A stretch of DNA of 64,000 bases from Magnetococcales bacterium (GTDB taxonomy: Bacteria > Pseudomonadota > Magnetococcia > Magnetococcales > JADFWU01). The stretch lies in assembly GCA_015234045.1 (NCBI GenBank), contig JADFWU010000010.1:21632-85631 (forward strand), written 5' to 3'. Shown one piece after another: positions 36,213 to 63,871 of this stretch. The notes under the pieces are model-generated. The model was not told the origin of the DNA. It did not search any database and saw only the letters and a program-made list of their open reading frames with translations. Numbering within the stretch: the first letter of the stretch is position 1; every line of letters starts with the position of its first letter. The position numbers were made by a program, and so were the translations under genes.

Positions 36213-36471
36213 TTTGCTTTGATATGAATCAATGGGACTATGGCAGAGATAATGATGATAAGTCGTCAGTGAAGATCATGTTTTATCTTCATTCATCGTT
36301 TGCTTATGGTCACTGTTTGGTCGTAATATGCTAAGGATAAACTGAGTGTATGGCTTGACAGAAAGAGTCATTCGCTCATTCAGTCAATTTTTCAGTTATA
36401 GATATCTGTTTCAAAGAATATTTGAAAGATAATTCCAGATTTGGTCATCTTAACAGGGGGGAGCCTGTTCC

Positions 36472-37788
36472 ATGCCATCGGATCAGGATAGATCAGCCAA
36501 ACTGCATCAAGCAGAAATAGAGATTCGTTATCTGCAAGAGACCATTCAAGCTCAACGTGATGAGATTGAACGCTTGGCCTATGATAAGAGCCGAAACGTT
36601 CAGGAAGCCCATGTCACCAGAGAGCAGGAAGTTGACCAACTCCATAATACCATCTCAGCCGTTCGTGATGAGATGGATCAGCGCCAGCATGATAATCTCA
36701 AAGCGGTTCAAAAGGCGCTTTCCCACCGTGAACAGGATATTATACAGCTAAAAGAGACAATAGCCGGTCTGCGTGATCGCCTGGAAGAGGCTCAGTATCA
36801 AGCCGGGCGTGACGTGCAAAAAACACGACTGCAAGGTCAGCAAGAGTCAGAGCAGTTGATCACCACGATCAATGGTCTACGCGATGAGATTGATGCGCTC
36901 CAATACGAAAAGCAGAAAAGCATTCAACAGGCGTGGAGTAGTCGTCAGCAAGAGATCGACATGCTTGAGGAGACCGTTAGCACTCTGCGTGATGAGATGG
37001 AAAATATCCGCTACGAGATGAGTCGTAAAGTTCAAGAAGCTGTGGTGGCCGGTCAACAAGAGATCAATCAACTGGTTGAGACCGTTGAGCATTTGCGTGA
37101 CACAATAGATGATATTCAGCATGAGAAGCAAAAAAGTGTTCAAGAGGCTATTTCACAAGGAAATCAGGTTGTTCGGCAGATGGAAAAAACCATCTCTGCT
37201 CTGCGTGATGAAATGGACTCCATTCAGTATGAAAAAAGCAGGAGTGTTCAGAAAGCGGTTGTATCCGGTGCACGTCAGGCAGAACTGCTTCAAGAGACAG
37301 TGCAAAAGTTACGTGATTCGTTGGATGAAATGGGACACGAAAAGCATAAGGCCGTTCAACAGGCCGTTGTAGATGGCCATCACGAAGCCTCTTTGCTTCA
37401 AGATACCATTCAATCCTTGCGCGATAATCTGGACAGTCTGAACTATGAAAAAGGCAAAGCGGTTCAGCAGGCAGTGGTGACCGGACAAAATGAAGTTCAG
37501 CAGCTTCAAGAGGCTGCTTCAGCGCTGCGTGATCGGCTGGATGACATACGCTATGAAGGTCAAAAAACATCACAGCAGATTCGTGCTCATTCGGAGCAGG
37601 ACTCCAAACAGTTTCAACATACCATTAGTTCATTGCGTGATGAGATGGATCAGATGCGCTATGAACATGAGAAACAAATTCAGGCTATGGTCAAGCAGGA
37701 ACGCGATCAGGCCAACCATCTAAAAGAGATGATCGTCGTATTACGGACGCAACTGGAGCAGCAGCATGACCAACCCAAACTCGGATAA
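36472..37788 (+). CDS. Coiled-coil protein of eleven exact 36-residue repeats
   Basis: 438 residues, almost entirely helical and charged, with no signal peptide or membrane segment. Residues 28-423 are eleven consecutive 36-residue repeats with no insertion or deletion. The consensus starts [L/Q/V]RDE[M/I], then a [Q/R]Y-x-[K/S] region, V-Q-x-A, Q-x-E, L, and ends E-T-[I/V]-S. Residues 1-27 are a partial repeat and 424-438 start a twelfth. Thirty-six is not a heptad multiple, but it equals ten turns of an ideal helix or 7+7+11+11, so a nearly straight rod is expected. I recognise no family. The gene overlaps the cyclase gene by 23 bases, suggesting a structural or localising partner. Confidence 0.85.
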   Translation: MPSDQDRSAKLHQAEIEIRYLQETIQAQRDEIERLAYDKSRNVQEAHVTREQEVDQLHNTISAVRDEMDQRQHDNLKAVQKALSHREQDIIQLKETIAGLRDRLEEAQYQAGRDVQKTRLQGQQESEQLITTINGLRDEIDALQYEKQKSIQQAWSSRQQEIDMLEETVSTLRDEMENIRYEMSRKVQEAVVAGQQEINQLVETVEHLRDTIDDIQHEKQKSVQEAISQGNQVVRQMEKTISALRDEMDSIQYEKSRSVQKAVVSGARQAELLQETVQKLRDSLDEMGHEKHKAVQQAVVDGHHEASLLQDTIQSLRDNLDSLNYEKGKAVQQAVVTGQNEVQQLQEAASALRDRLDDIRYEGQKTSQQIRAHSEQDSKQFQHTISSLRDEMDQMRYEHEKQIQAMVKQERDQANHLKEMIVVLRTQLEQQHDQPKLG

Positions 37789-40119: not shown

Positions 40120-40587
40120 ATGACTGAGACAGAAATCAACTCCTCTGAGACACTGTTAACTGTATTAAAAAATGTTTCACAAAACGCTACCAAAGCCGGA
40201 CTTGATTCGCTATTGGTTGATATGGTTTCTGAGACAATCGACAAGGTGAATTCGTATCGTTTTGCCGAGCAGTTGGGTATGGTAGGCGGTGCGAATCGTA
40301 CTGACGCGCAGGTCAACAAACGCGAAAACTATCGCGTAGCCACCGAGCAAGAAGGGTTGGTTATCCGCGATGGCAACAAAACCCGCATTTTGATTCTCGA
40401 TATGAGTCCGCAGGGATTCGGCATAGAAAGCCCGGTACGCATTCCCAGTCATAAACAGGTGATGCTGGAGTTACACTCTTCTGAAGGTGGCAACGATCTG
40501 TTTTCTTGCCAAGTGGCGGCGTGTCAGAAGAAAGAGAAAGTCTTCCGTGTTGGTTTGAAAGTAATGGATATGTTGCCGAGGTTTTAA
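40120..40587 (+). CDS. PilZ domain protein
   Basis: 155 residues. A helical N-terminus of about 70 residues leads to a PilZ domain with RENYR (the RxxxR c-di-GMP-binding motif) and DMSPQGFGIES (the D-x-S-x-x-G motif). It should bind c-di-GMP. The ATG at 40120 lies 17 bases after the cyclase stop; the longer ORF from 40030 overlaps the cyclase. It is the third gene of the coiled-coil/cyclase operon, placing a cAMP producer and a c-di-GMP receptor on one transcript. Confidence 0.88.
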   Translation: MTETEINSSETLLTVLKNVSQNATKAGLDSLLVDMVSETIDKVNSYRFAEQLGMVGGANRTDAQVNKRENYRVATEQEGLVIRDGNKTRILILDMSPQGFGIESPVRIPSHKQVMLELHSSEGGNDLFSCQVAACQKKEKVFRVGLKVMDMLPRF

Positions 40588-41332: not shown

Positions 41333-41605
41333 ATGGCAGCAGCAACTCAGAGAATTGATTTGCGACTGAAACCAGAAGCTAAACAGATCATCAGCGAAGC
41401 CGCTGACGCTATGGGAGTGAGTATTTCAAATTTTGTCACCAGCTGTGTGCTGGAAAAAGCGCGAAGAGTTATTCAAGAAAGAGATGTAATCCGACTATCA
41501 AGTCGGGATCACGATGCCTTTATGGAGGCAATTAATAATCCGGCACCCCCCAATGAAAAATTGATCAAGGCTGTCAAAAACTATCGTGAAAGAGGTTTTA
41601 CATGA
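41333..41605 (+). CDS. tacA: TacA-like DUF1778 antitoxin
   Basis: 90 residues. An N-terminal ribbon-helix-helix (ATQRIDLRLKPEAKQIISEA, then MGVSISNFVTSCVLEKAR) binds DNA. The C-terminal tail (DHDAFMEAINNPAPPNEKL) is the usual neutralising segment of DUF1778 antitoxins. It overlaps the toxin gene by four bases (ATGA). The pair lies inside the mobile region and probably came with it. Confidence 0.88.
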   Translation: MAAATQRIDLRLKPEAKQIISEAADAMGVSISNFVTSCVLEKARRVIQERDVIRLSSRDHDAFMEAINNPAPPNEKLIKAVKNYRERGFT

Positions 41606-42117
41606 AGCGAGATACAGTCAACCAAGGTGTGCCACTCACCAAGCACCACAACCGAAATTTATTTGATTGTGGTGTTACAGAGCTAGATGAATATCTTAAG
41701 AAATTTGCACTTCAGCATAGCAAAAAAGATATTTCTAAACCCTACGTAATTTTGACTAAAGATGGTCCCGCTCGGATTTGCGGCTATTACACCATCAGCA
41801 CAGCTCATGTGATGCGCGATCAGTTGCCAGAGAATGAGCAGAAAGGCCTGTCAGGACATCCGGTTCCTGTTATACGCATAGGCCGACTGGCTGTTGACCG
41901 TACTATGCAGGGTCAAGGTATTGGTAGTGATTTACTCACTGATGCCATGAATAAAGCCATGCAGATTGCCGACATGGTTGGCGTTAGAGCGGTAATTGTC
42001 GATGCTAAAGATGAGTCCGCAAAGGCTTTCTACGCTGGATTCGGCTTTGTTGCACTCAAGGATACCCCCTTGAATCTGTACATGTCCTTAAAGACGTACA
42101 GGACTGCATGGACATAA
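41602..42117 (+). CDS. tacT: TacT-like GNAT acetyltransferase toxin
   Basis: 171 residues. The GNAT fold has the acetyl-CoA loop RTMQGQGIGSDLL and the GFVAL segment, after IRIGRLAVD. The N-terminus (FDCGVTELDEYLKKFALQH) is typical of TacT/AtaT-type toxins, which acetylate the amino group of charged tRNAs and so block translation. It appears intact. The activity is from family knowledge. Confidence 0.88.
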   Translation: MKRDTVNQGVPLTKHHNRNLFDCGVTELDEYLKKFALQHSKKDISKPYVILTKDGPARICGYYTISTAHVMRDQLPENEQKGLSGHPVPVIRIGRLAVDRTMQGQGIGSDLLTDAMNKAMQIADMVGVRAVIVDAKDESAKAFYAGFGFVALKDTPLNLYMSLKTYRTAWT

Positions 42118-43000: not shown

Positions 43001-43240
43001 TTGATTTCGGTTACTCTTCCGCTAGACATGGAAACCAAATTAAGGGCCATGGCTAATCAAAACAGTCAGAGTCTGGATGAATGTCTAACTAAAGTAGTGC
43101 AATGGTACTTCGAAGAGCTGGAAGAAGATCGGATGCAATTGGAGTCTGCCCGCACATCACTGGCTGAATGGGAAAGGAGTGGTGAGGGTGTCACCCTTGA
43201 GAATATGAAACAAGAAATTGGCTGCGTTAAAGTGCAATGA
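43001..43240 (+). CDS. Small RHH-like antitoxin candidate
   Basis: 79 residues, starting with TTG. The N-terminus (SVTLPLDMETKLRAMANQNS) resembles a ribbon-helix-helix or CopG-like DNA-binding region, and the rest is acidic and helical. It overlaps the MNT gene by four bases (ATGA), making a three-gene string with MNT and HEPN. The function is inferred from position. Confidence 0.5.
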   Translation: MISVTLPLDMETKLRAMANQNSQSLDECLTKVVQWYFEELEEDRMQLESARTSLAEWERSGEGVTLENMKQEIGCVKVQ

Positions 43241-43527
43241 TGGACCTTTCTGAAGTGCAATCCAAACGCCATGAAATATTCAATCTGGCCAAACAGTACG
43301 GCATCAAAAGTATTCGCCTGTTTGGTTCTATCGTTACAGGAATGAACACGCCTGAGAGCGATATTGATTTTTTGGTGGAAGTGGAATCAGAGTGGAGCTT
43401 GTTGGATCGAATTGCATTAATTCAGGAGCTGGAAGAGCTGTTGGATTGCCCTGTAGATCTGGTACAGGCAAAGAGTCTGCATTGGTATGTTCAGGATAAG
43501 ATTCTATCTGAAGCAGTCCAGCTATGA
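43237..43527 (+). CDS. MNT-domain nucleotidyltransferase (MntA-like antitoxin)
   Basis: 96 residues. The minimal nucleotidyltransferase motif is LFGSIVTGMNTPESDIDFLVEV, split here as GS-x10-D-x-D. In HEPN/MNT systems this protein AMPylates and silences the HEPN toxin encoded next to it. The gene looks intact. It overlaps the downstream hepT fragment by ATGA. Confidence 0.85.
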   Translation: MMDLSEVQSKRHEIFNLAKQYGIKSIRLFGSIVTGMNTPESDIDFLVEVESEWSLLDRIALIQELEELLDCPVDLVQAKSLHWYVQDKILSEAVQL

Positions 43528-43733
43528 GCAAAGACCCGGCTCTTTATCTTCATCACATACTGGAATGTATTGATAAGGTCCAGCGGTATACCCGGAATGG
43601 TCGTGATTCTTTTCTCCATGAGGAGCTGGTACAGGATGCTGTTTACCGTAACCTTGAAATCATAGGTGTGATAACGCCTGATCTTCGCAATGGTTTCCAT
43701 AATCAACATCCTCTGAATTCCCCCATGGCCTGA
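43524..43733 (+). pseudogene. hepT: HEPN (HepT-like/DUF86) toxin, truncated by IS21 left end
   Basis: The first 48 codons match HepT (YLHHILECIDKVQRYT, HEELVQDAVYRNLEIIG). From 43668 the sequence becomes the reverse complement of the istA start, adding about 21 foreign codons before a stop. The catalytic R-x4-6-H motif would lie in the lost C-terminal half, so the toxin should be inactive. Confidence 0.85.
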
Positions 43734-54853: not shown

Positions 54854-57163
54854 ATGAAAATGAAACGATGGATGCGTAGCGTGGGGGCTGTGTGTGCTCT
54901 TGGCATGTTGACCGCTTGTGGTGGCGGTGGTGGTGGTGGGTCCACTCAACAGACAGTCACTCTGTCTGGTACAGTTCCGGGCACGCTTATTGAGGCGTTT
55001 GGGGATAACGGGTTCTATACTAAAACGACATCAACGGACAATGGCACTGGTCAACACCCTTTTACATTGGAGGTTCCGGCTGATATTGGCTTTCAGATGG
55101 TCATGACCATGAACGAAAATCAGGCGAATGCGATAAGTATTCCGATTCGTTTCAATGCGATTGATGGCAATAGTACCCAAAGTCGGCTTCGTTTGAGCAA
55201 GGGCAATGATTTGGCTTTGGGTCATATTGATCTTAGCCAGGCTGTGGACCTGGATGGTGATTCTCTCAGCGATGCCCCTTTGGATCTGACCTTTGCTGAT
55301 AGTGCAAAACATCCATTGAGATTGTCTGACCTGGATGGCGATGGTACGGTTGATCAGCTTGATACAAATACGGTCTCAACCAGCAATCAGGATCCTGATA
55401 ACGATGGCTGGCCTAACAGCTATGATCCTGATGACGATGGCGATTCGATACTGGATGAGAATGACAGTGATCATCTCTCTTCAGCGCAAGATGCGGATGG
55501 CGATGGTATACACGATGAAAGTGATGCTGATCCGCATAATGATGACGATAGCGATGACCGTTACGATTCCAGCCTGGATCATGACCACGATGGTTACATT
55601 GACGATGAGGACCACGACTACACAACTGGCACCAGCAACGGTGACTCAACCGCGCCTATTACGCGCAGCAGTCATTTAGTGTTGGCCAGCAATGATCTTG
55701 GGATGCATTGTTTGGATAAAGACTATTCGGTTTTTTCGTTGTTGCCGCCGTATAATGTGGTGAATGCTCAGGTTGTCGAGCGCGGTCTGCGTCCGAAGAT
55801 TCTGAGTTCAAGTGAAGCGTCGGTGAGCTATTCGGCCACTACGGACAGTACTGGATCAATCAATAGAACAAGTTCAGATAAAGTGAATTTCTGGACCCAT
55901 GCAGAAGCTCTGTTTGGTCAACAACTTTCTGATGAGGTTGGCTTGAGTGGTCAGCGTATGCCTGGTAATGGTTCAGAGGATTTTCAACAATACGATTCAA
56001 CGCATAAATGGTTCACCGCAGCCGGAATTCCTATCACGCCTTATGATGACGCGGGCAATACCAATGCATATCCTGTGCTAAAAGTGCAAGCCAAAAGCAC
56101 CAATGGACAGAGCCTTGCGGAAGCGGATGTTGTGCTACCGGTTTCAGATGAGACCGATTGTGCCAGTTGTCATGATACCGGAGAGCAAGGGGCGAATCGT
56201 TCCAGTATAACCTGGACGGATTCCAGCACCGTTGCGGATAAGGATACACGCGCTAAAATCAATATTCTGATTTTGCATGATGTGGAAAATGCAACCAACC
56301 TGCAAAACCAGACACCAGTGATGTGTGGATCGTGTCACGAGGCCGGTGCTTCGGCATTGATCAGCAATCATCAGAGCAATAGTTCGGTGCCTTCTCTGTC
56401 CAAAGCGTTACATAGTCGGCATGCGTTTATTTCTCAGTCCAGCAGTACGGGTGATGCTTGTTATGCGTGTCATCCTGGTCAGGATACCCGCTGTTTGCGT
56501 GGTGCCATGGGTAGTTCCGAGGAGATTGTTTGTGAAGATTGTCATGGTGATATGAACACTGTGGCCAGTTCGACTCGAACACCTTGGGTTGATTTGCCGC
56601 GTTGTGAGTCGTGTCATACCGGTGATGCCGTTGACAATGATGGCGCAATTCGTCGTACCAATGCATTCGATAACAGCACGCTCCACACTTCCAGCAACAG
56701 CCGGTTTTCTGAAAGCAGCGACACATTGTTCAAAGACAGTTTAGGACATGGTGGCGTAGCTTGCCGTGGTTGTCATGGTAGTCCGCATGCGATTTGGCCG
56801 TCACTTAAGGAGAATGACAACCTCATCAGCGAAACCCAACAAGGACATGCGGGCACGCTCTCCGAGTGCAGTATTTGTCACAGTTCATTGGAGCTAACCA
56901 CCAATGGTCCGCACGGAATGCACAATGTAAATGATAGTCGCTGGGCGGATGAGCATGAAGATTTCTATGAGGCAAATCCAAATAGTTGCAAAAGCTGTCA
57001 TGGTACAGACCTGAAGGGCACTGTGCTTTCACGCACCGCAGACGCACGTGTTTATCATACTGAGGAGGGCACCTTTTCAGCAGCTAAGGGACAAATGATC
57101 TCTTGTTCTCTGTGCCACGGGAATCCGTCCAGAGGGTCAAGTCATGATGACGATGATGATTGA
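54854..57163 (+). CDS. Nine-haem c-type cytochrome lipoprotein with calcium-binding repeats
   Basis: 769 residues. A lipobox LTAC with Cys22 after MKMKRWMRSVGAVCALG marks a lipoprotein, followed by a poly-Gly linker. Residues about 150-260 are Asp-rich DxDxDG repeats of the thrombospondin-type-3 kind. A domain starting ASNDLGMHCLDKDYSVFSL comes next. Then nine CxxCH motifs lie between about 430 and 765 (CASCH, CGSCH, CYACH, CEDCH, CESCH, CRGCH, CSICH, CKSCH, CSLCH). It probably carries electrons at the outer membrane or outside it. No porin or other electron-transfer partner is encoded nearby. Confidence 0.9.
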   Translation: MKMKRWMRSVGAVCALGMLTACGGGGGGGSTQQTVTLSGTVPGTLIEAFGDNGFYTKTTSTDNGTGQHPFTLEVPADIGFQMVMTMNENQANAISIPIRFNAIDGNSTQSRLRLSKGNDLALGHIDLSQAVDLDGDSLSDAPLDLTFADSAKHPLRLSDLDGDGTVDQLDTNTVSTSNQDPDNDGWPNSYDPDDDGDSILDENDSDHLSSAQDADGDGIHDESDADPHNDDDSDDRYDSSLDHDHDGYIDDEDHDYTTGTSNGDSTAPITRSSHLVLASNDLGMHCLDKDYSVFSLLPPYNVVNAQVVERGLRPKILSSSEASVSYSATTDSTGSINRTSSDKVNFWTHAEALFGQQLSDEVGLSGQRMPGNGSEDFQQYDSTHKWFTAAGIPITPYDDAGNTNAYPVLKVQAKSTNGQSLAEADVVLPVSDETDCASCHDTGEQGANRSSITWTDSSTVADKDTRAKINILILHDVENATNLQNQTPVMCGSCHEAGASALISNHQSNSSVPSLSKALHSRHAFISQSSSTGDACYACHPGQDTRCLRGAMGSSEEIVCEDCHGDMNTVASSTRTPWVDLPRCESCHTGDAVDNDGAIRRTNAFDNSTLHTSSNSRFSESSDTLFKDSLGHGGVACRGCHGSPHAIWPSLKENDNLISETQQGHAGTLSECSICHSSLELTTNGPHGMHNVNDSRWADEHEDFYEANPNSCKSCHGTDLKGTVLSRTADARVYHTEEGTFSAAKGQMISCSLCHGNPSRGSSHDDDDD

Positions 57164-63148: not shown

Positions 63149-63871
63149 GTTACGCAGTTGCCTCTATCGGCAAGACACAAAACGGCTTTGCCAAATAAAG
63201 GCGAACAGCTTCTCGAACGATGCCGGTTTTGATATCAAACCAGCTTCGTCCAGTGGCAAAACTGAATCGCTCCAGGCGGAGAAATGCCCGTATTGCACAG
63301 CCGATATGATTTCGTTGTGCCACTGCTCCACGAACCTGGGAACGTTCAACACCACAGAATTGTTTGAGGCCCCGATGGTAGTTTTCGATAGCCCAACTCC
63401 ATTCAGTATAGGGTAGAATTGATAGTTCATCTGAATCAACATCATTGGTTGCCCAATGCTCAATGTCACCTTTTTGGGAGACGATCTTGAACACCTTGAT
63501 CAGGCCAAAACCTTTAAGATGAACTACCGTTCCTTCACGAGATATCTCGACTTTCCTGATGGGCACATTCCCAGAGCGATCTGGATTAACAAGCCGATTG
63601 GATTGTAGACGAGTTAACCATTTCCAATTGTTTTTACGAACTAATTTTAGATTCTCCAAGCTGCTATACTAGCTATCAAATGCAATATATAAAGGCTCTA
63701 AGCCACGCAATTTGGCTTTTTCCAGCATTGCTCGGAAATGGTCGTTTTTTGTCAGATTATCTGTTTCCTTGGCGTAAACCCGATAGTCACATGGAATTTG
63801 GCTATCTCCATCAGTCCATAGCAAAGTGATCAGGTTGATCCCTTTTACCATAATGTTTGATATTATTATGA
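63149..63871 (-). pseudogene. IS701/IS4-like transposase, N-terminally truncated and amber-interrupted
   Basis: The minus-strand frame from 63851 reads MVKGINLITLLWTDG, NLTKNDHFRAMLEKAK and LYIAFDS, then TAG at 63669-63671, and continues in the same frame YSSLENLKLV to a stop at 63150. Related transposases read FDSWY here, so a Trp codon became amber. The second Asp (AFDS) and the catalytic Glu region (WAIENYHRGLKQFCGVE) remain; the first Asp and ~100 N-terminal residues are missing. The stop codon lies in the CAACTGCGTAAC end. Confidence 0.82.

Follow-up and report, generated by a model that had tools for sequence, protein, structure and literature searches.

A bacterial rod protein of in-phase 36-residue repeats encoded next to a CyaB-type adenylate cyclase

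The window analysed in this work, a stretch of 64,000 nucleotides from a Magnetococcales bacterium, contains a gene for a repetitive protein, hereafter called the rod, whose 3' end overlaps the start of a gene for a class III adenylate cyclase (Table 1). A gene encoding a PilZ-domain protein follows, and it is possibly carried on the same transcript as the rod and cyclase genes. PilZ is of the c-di-GMP receptor type, and its position beside a cyclase could allow cross-talk between cAMP and c-di-GMP in the window lineage. A three-gene operon with PilZ was considered and rejected, as flank clustering of about 95 loci showed no conserved third gene next to the rod-cyclase pair. In two other loci (L058 3258-4202, forward strand; L059 6886-7842, reverse strand) a protein with two cyclic-nucleotide-binding-like domains, recognised by eye, is encoded directly upstream of the pair and is a candidate cAMP receptor.

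Table 1. Features of the rod-cyclase locus in the window
Feature	Position	Strand	Basis and remarks
Rod gene, 438 aa	36472..37788	+	ORF
Probable ribosome binding site of rod gene, AGGGGGGAG	36455..36463	+	Sequence, 8 nt before ATG 36472
Rod N-terminal half-unit, residues 9-27	36496..36552	+	Conserved in homologues as (L)xAxxEIRxLKxTIxA
Eleven contiguous 36-aa units, rod residues 28-423	36553..37740	+	Lag analysis
Rod C-terminal half-unit and tail (LRTQLEQ...), rod end	37741..37785	+	Homologue comparison
GAF-GAF-PAS class III adenylate cyclase with TPR-like C-terminal end, 778 aa	37766..40102	+	Pfam; 23-nt overlap with rod gene end
Probable ribosome binding site of cyclase, GGAG, inside rod gene	37755..37758	+	Sequence, 7 nt before ATG 37766
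PilZ-domain protein	40120..40587	+	PF07238, 4.3e-07; 17 nt after cyclase stop

The rod is built from eleven consecutive units of exactly 36 amino acids, with neither gap nor indel, as had been claimed in an earlier, sequence-only reading of this DNA. The mean BLOSUM62 score of the protein was 1.77, 1.93 and 1.73 at lags of 36, 72 and 108, against a best value at any lag of -0.02 in 500 shuffles. Unit columns R2, D3, Y/H10 and Q17 are kept in all eleven units and V/I16 in ten, so that most of the motif proposed in that reading stands; its lysine is a tendency, since K12 is present in only six units. The array extends past the eleven units, with residues 9-27 matching the latter half of a unit and residues 424-432 the start of a further one. 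Compared with each other, the units of the window rod share 37-40% amino acid identity and 48-51% DNA identity, the latter over a background of about 29%, and Tandem Repeats Finder returned nothing at the array in the window. From this inter-unit DNA identity and the lack of a Tandem Repeats Finder match it follows that the repeat is old, and that conservation acts on the protein. The rod has no signal or transmembrane stretch (maximum Kyte-Doolittle value over 19 residues, 0.2) and no cysteine, its only prolines are at residues 2 and 435, and it is net acidic, with 82 D/E to 58 K/R. No paralogue was found elsewhere in the same genome, and a phage origin was rejected, as there was no match in phage records.

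Over the homologues, the unit has the consensus LRDELEELRFEKDEAVQEAVAAAQDEIRQLKETIAA, and its most conserved segment is DEIxQLKxTIxxLRDELE (E26 in 318, L30 in 332 and R2 in 318 of 347 units). In the same 347 units the hydrophobic core columns are 1, 5, 8, 12, 16, 19, 23, 27, 30 and 34, spaced 4-3-4-4-3-4-4-3-4-3, that is, 7+11+11+7 = 36 residues in ten turns. The spacing of 7+7+11+11 that had been suggested earlier is the same in cyclic order. Core position 12 is polar, being mostly lysine. The canonical heptad does not describe the rod, as ten core columns in 36 residues give a period of 3.6 and not 3.5 residues, a value partly set by the unit length because a 36-residue tile can peak only at 36/k. 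An AlphaFold2 model of a single chain, made with an alignment of 16 homologues, has helix at residues 4-233 and 241-432 (mean pLDDT 77, pTM 0.23), in agreement with the long continuous helix that had been anticipated. The break at residues 234-240 was treated as an artefact, since pLDDT is below 50, the run was of a single chain and there is no proline. The rod is thus predicted to be a long helix; as a single-chain run with a pTM of 0.23, the model carries no information on oligomer or coiled coil. With a helical rise of 0.15 nm per residue and an indel-free register, each unit would add about 5.4 nm, and the predicted length of the rod is a whole multiple of this value.

The sequence-only reading had supposed a strict register, to be given up if homologues proved irregularly spaced. 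In 76 rods, all 359 strong units keep to a single phase, modulo 36, within each protein, with none off phase; looser matches in a wider set of 95 proteins gave 486 units in phase and 0 out of phase at i-E<0.01. As a power control, 1-11 residues were deleted from the interior of 59 rods, once per rod, and the test picked up a second phase for every one of these 59 simulated indels. Yet the number of units varies from about 1 to 11, being mostly 3-5, with the window rod joint highest, and a single genus (f13/g13) spans 4 to 10. Many homologues are short, with 2-4 units and about 15-25 nm. At least 37 changes in unit count were mapped on a FastTree tree of 95 cyclases, a figure that includes detection noise and is upper-biased because weak units can be missed. 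Thus, the phase of the rod is held while its length is free. Near-identical 108-bp tandem DNA repeats are present in the rod gene of Magnetovibrio and of one Rhodospirillales bin (L129 3214-3839, L110 3196-3806), indicating recent whole-unit expansion; such repeats are the raw material expected for the gain or loss of whole units. Internal units share 52% identity within one protein, compared with 41% to internal units of other proteins. They resemble the last and the first unit of their own protein at only 35% and 31%, respectively. The rod therefore has ends that differ from its homogenised interior, a pattern to be expected if two specialised termini flank a spacer or binding array.

Searches of Pfam, NCBIfam and PDB place the rod in no described family, and here too the sequence-only reading held. 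In Pfam-A the window rod matched Tnp_22_trimer at 27 bits against a cut-off of 22.2, with no stretch significant alone and only 20 residues aligned, and other rods rose narrowly above the cut-offs of unrelated models: CENP-F_leu_zip (35.4/34.5), DUF6779 (28.4/28.1) and Tail_P2_I (22.5/20.6). Since the model is a different one each time, the matches reflect coiled-coil composition and not membership; a place in a Pfam-A family, including the transposon trimerisation domain and eukaryotic coiled coils, was discarded as inconsistent between members. No NCBIfam model was above its cut-off for the window rod, and the best, SMC_prok_B, gave 34.3 bits against 567, so far below that an SMC protein was rejected; the other rod members were all below the curated cut-off. 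Relatives of the rod in the PDB amounted to no chain at E<=0.01 with a single sequence and none at 0.001 with a profile. Within the limited literature searched, nothing relevant was found on coiled coils with a 36-residue unit, on scaffolds for a cyclase or on a rod-cyclase operon.

Several long bacterial coiled coils, among them crescentin, intermediate-filament-like proteins and DivIVA/GpsB, act as scaffolds, but these are heptad-based or have membrane-binding heads and, unlike the rod, have no 36-residue unit. FilP and Scy have a repeat of 51 residues. The resemblance of these two proteins to the rod is one of kind, both being bacterial and cytosolic (for the rod, by prediction) with long non-heptad repeats; they differ in unit length (51 versus 36 residues), have no cyclase partner and belong to another phylum. 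No sequence link between the rod and FilP/Scy was found, and a 51-residue unit does not fit the rod, whose homologues all have the 36-residue unit with 0 off phase. FilP and Scy have been described as a novel coiled-coil repeat variant (Walshaw 2010, cited in PMC6599971). The signalling-helix or coiled-coil linkers of cyclases and histidine kinases also place, as the rod does, a coiled coil ahead of a sensor-cyclase; however, they are short and lie inside the enzyme, whereas the rod is a separate protein of up to 11 units that is fused in one genome only. The rod is therefore of the bacterial coiled-coil scaffold kind, but its unit and partner are unreported and the conservation of its phase is unusual.

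The downstream protein has, in Pfam order, a tandem GAF, a PAS, a class III cyclase domain and a TPR-like C-terminus. The domain order of CyaB1 is PAS-cyclase-TPR, and the window cyclase shows the CyaB1/CyaB2-type architecture, with the TPR-like end tentative (PF07719, 16.5 bits, below its own cut-off of 27 bits). We know of no rod protein reported beside CyaB1 or CyaB2. With both Anabaena proteins the window cyclase has in common the tandem GAF, the class III cyclase domain and the NKFDE motif in GAF-B (PDB 1ykd, PMC4411481), and the closest solved structure of its GAF pair is that of CyaB2 (PDB 1ykd, E 1.9e-41). The word "operon" is absent from the text of the CyaB2 paper (PMC4411481). Catalytic residues are invariant in 17 orthologues (metal D525/D569, adenine-specifying K565/D637, transition-state N646/R650), and judging from them the active site is intact and of the adenylate type. 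GAF-B carries NKFDE, the motif of cAMP-binding GAF domains, in 17 of 17 cyclases, and GAF-A has NK[FY]D followed by a variable last residue in the same 17. Helices are predicted before GAF-A and between the domains, and residues 1-27 are predicted to be disordered (pLDDT <50). Most cyclases begin with a low-complexity N-terminal tail; its net charge averages +4.1 and is +2 or higher in 75 of 92 tails, the start codons that define the tails being guesses, and rod units average -2.2.

Among 48 genomes of the order, ten carry the rod, and the same ten carry an orthologue of the cyclase over its full length (67-71% identity), adjacent to the rod in each. In an eleventh genome of the order, G006, rod repeats are fused to the N-terminus of the cyclase (L048 6225-8933; cyclase 58%), and no separate rod was found there. 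The fused segment comprises the half-unit, a single exact unit of 36 residues and a decayed remnant, and a proline-rich stretch lies between it and the cyclase. Within 398 genomes of the phylum, the cyclase was detected in 25 at E<=1e-130 and rod matches in 14 at E<=1e-12, all of them within the 25 and all at the cyclase locus. Apart from L069, where the contig stops within the cyclase, the remaining families have short rods directly upstream of the cyclase, recognised by eye and with the unit profile. Scanning genome contigs with the cyclase alignment yielded 80 loci; going by the deposited names, which may be wrong for some bins, they belong to alpha-, beta-, delta- and zetaproteobacteria, Verrucomicrobia and planctomycetes. 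A rod ORF lies directly upstream in 76 of the 80, and in the four loci without it (L112, L117, L136, L139) the contig begins no more than 313 nt upstream. It must be taken into account that these loci, found by scanning for the cyclase, test for the rod given the cyclase, and that the cyclase given the rod was tested only by the rod searches of the 48-genome order and 398-genome phylum sets. The cyclase start lies between -35 and +30 nt from the rod stop in 57 of the 69 loci with a scorable ATG, with an exact ATGA overlap in 11 of them. Pairing as a habit of any cyclase was rejected, as the less related cyclase loci L049 and L050 of the order have no rod upstream. The rod-cyclase partnership is thus strongly supported by genomics; the gene pairing and the one fusion show a functional link, as distinct from binding.

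With a constant cyclase partner and no described family that covers it, the rod looks like an overlooked signalling scaffold. A ruler, filament or scaffold had been suggested from the repeats; the ruler of set length is disfavoured because the length varies, and the adenylate cyclase as an obligate neighbour, which was absent from that reading, points away from a filament standing on its own and towards a scaffold for signalling. On balance we lean, with moderate confidence, towards a rod that is a register-locked, near-straight coiled coil and scaffolds the downstream cyclase as a dedicated partner. Two or more chains would assemble into a cytosolic, near-straight alpha-helical coiled coil, in which the core stripe would be back on the same face every 36 residues, or ten turns. 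The conserved half-units at both ends would be functional termini, and the interior would be a spacer or an array of several sites. It would gain or lose length only in whole units, since the stripe would be interrupted by a change of any other size. Binding of the cyclase by the rod may occur, in the simplest case via the flexible, usually basic N-tail of the latter on the acidic rod surface, although such electrostatics cannot be general, since 10 of 92 tails have a net charge of -1 or lower. In this way the rod would hold or cluster cyclase dimers. It has been reported that cAMP binding to the GAF domains of Anabaena CyaB2 raises cyclase activity (PMC4411481). Clustering would favour local self-activation by cAMP, given the NKFDE motif of GAF-B: cAMP from one dimer could reach GAF-B of the next, and the threshold for self-activation would fall, as in Anabaena CyaB1/CyaB2. 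A more speculative extension, to which we give rather little credence, is that these register-locked rods form an as yet unreported class of second-messenger scaffold in bacteria that co-assembles with self-activating CyaB1-type cyclases, with the unit number serving as an evolvable dial for the number of cyclases clustered and thus for the cAMP feedback threshold.

The rod could instead be a direct allosteric regulator, one end of which docks onto the cyclase's N-terminal helix and passes on a rotation or the signal of another partner, acting as a relay and not as a scaffold. The predicted cyclase helices, the position-specific rod ends and the near one-to-one pairing are consistent with this possibility, which we nevertheless consider doubtful. 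A continuous helix would be expected in a relay, but most cyclases start with the low-complexity tail, the unit number varies freely, and the natural fusion has the proline-rich, probably flexible stretch between repeats and cyclase, which favours tethering over rigid signal relay. Less probable still is a cytoskeletal filament former similar to crescentin or FilP, with the co-transcribed cyclase as only one client. The rod is a long soluble coiled coil, by prediction, with stretched repeats, and FilP of Streptomyces, another bacterial rod, forms striated filaments (PMC6599971). However, in the 398-genome search the rod was found beside the cyclase only, many homologues are short rods of 2-4 units, and a fused single-unit version exists. 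A translational or chaperone helper, whose gene would mainly provide translational coupling or assist assembly of the cyclase dimer, agrees with the overlapping starts and the constant upstream position; it is improbable, as it explains neither the 36-residue phase across phyla nor the growth to 11 units. A fixed-length ruler for a cell structure, although suggested by a length that is an exact multiple of the unit, is very improbable in view of the spread of unit numbers within one genus and the many changes on the cyclase tree.

A widespread unannotated rod family gains a testable function, that of constant partner to an adenylate cyclase in several phyla. If the rod does cluster a cAMP-activated cyclase, it would be a dedicated bacterial cAMP scaffold, and such a role is more often associated with the anchoring proteins of eukaryotes. 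For coiled-coil physics, too, the rod offers a natural experiment: it has 36 residues in ten turns at 3.6 per turn, and whole-unit length changes are allowed and all others apparently excluded in at least three phyla.

Elsewhere in the window, some other features were noticed. A 90-aa ribbon-helix-helix-like ORF overlaps by 4 nt a 171-aa GNAT acetyltransferase (41333-42117, forward strand), and by eye the two have the look of a TacAT-type toxin-antitoxin pair. A 96-aa MNT-type nucleotidyltransferase-like ORF (RLFGSIVTGMNTPESDIDFLVEV) is followed by a short HEPN-like ORF (43237-43733, forward strand), also by eye a possible MNT/HEPN pair. After a two-component system there is a 769-aa lipoprotein-like ORF that combines Asp-rich repeats of the calcium-binding type with many CxxCH haem motifs (54854-57163, forward strand), and a transposase remnant at 63150-63659 on the reverse strand resembles, by eye, the IS1595 type.
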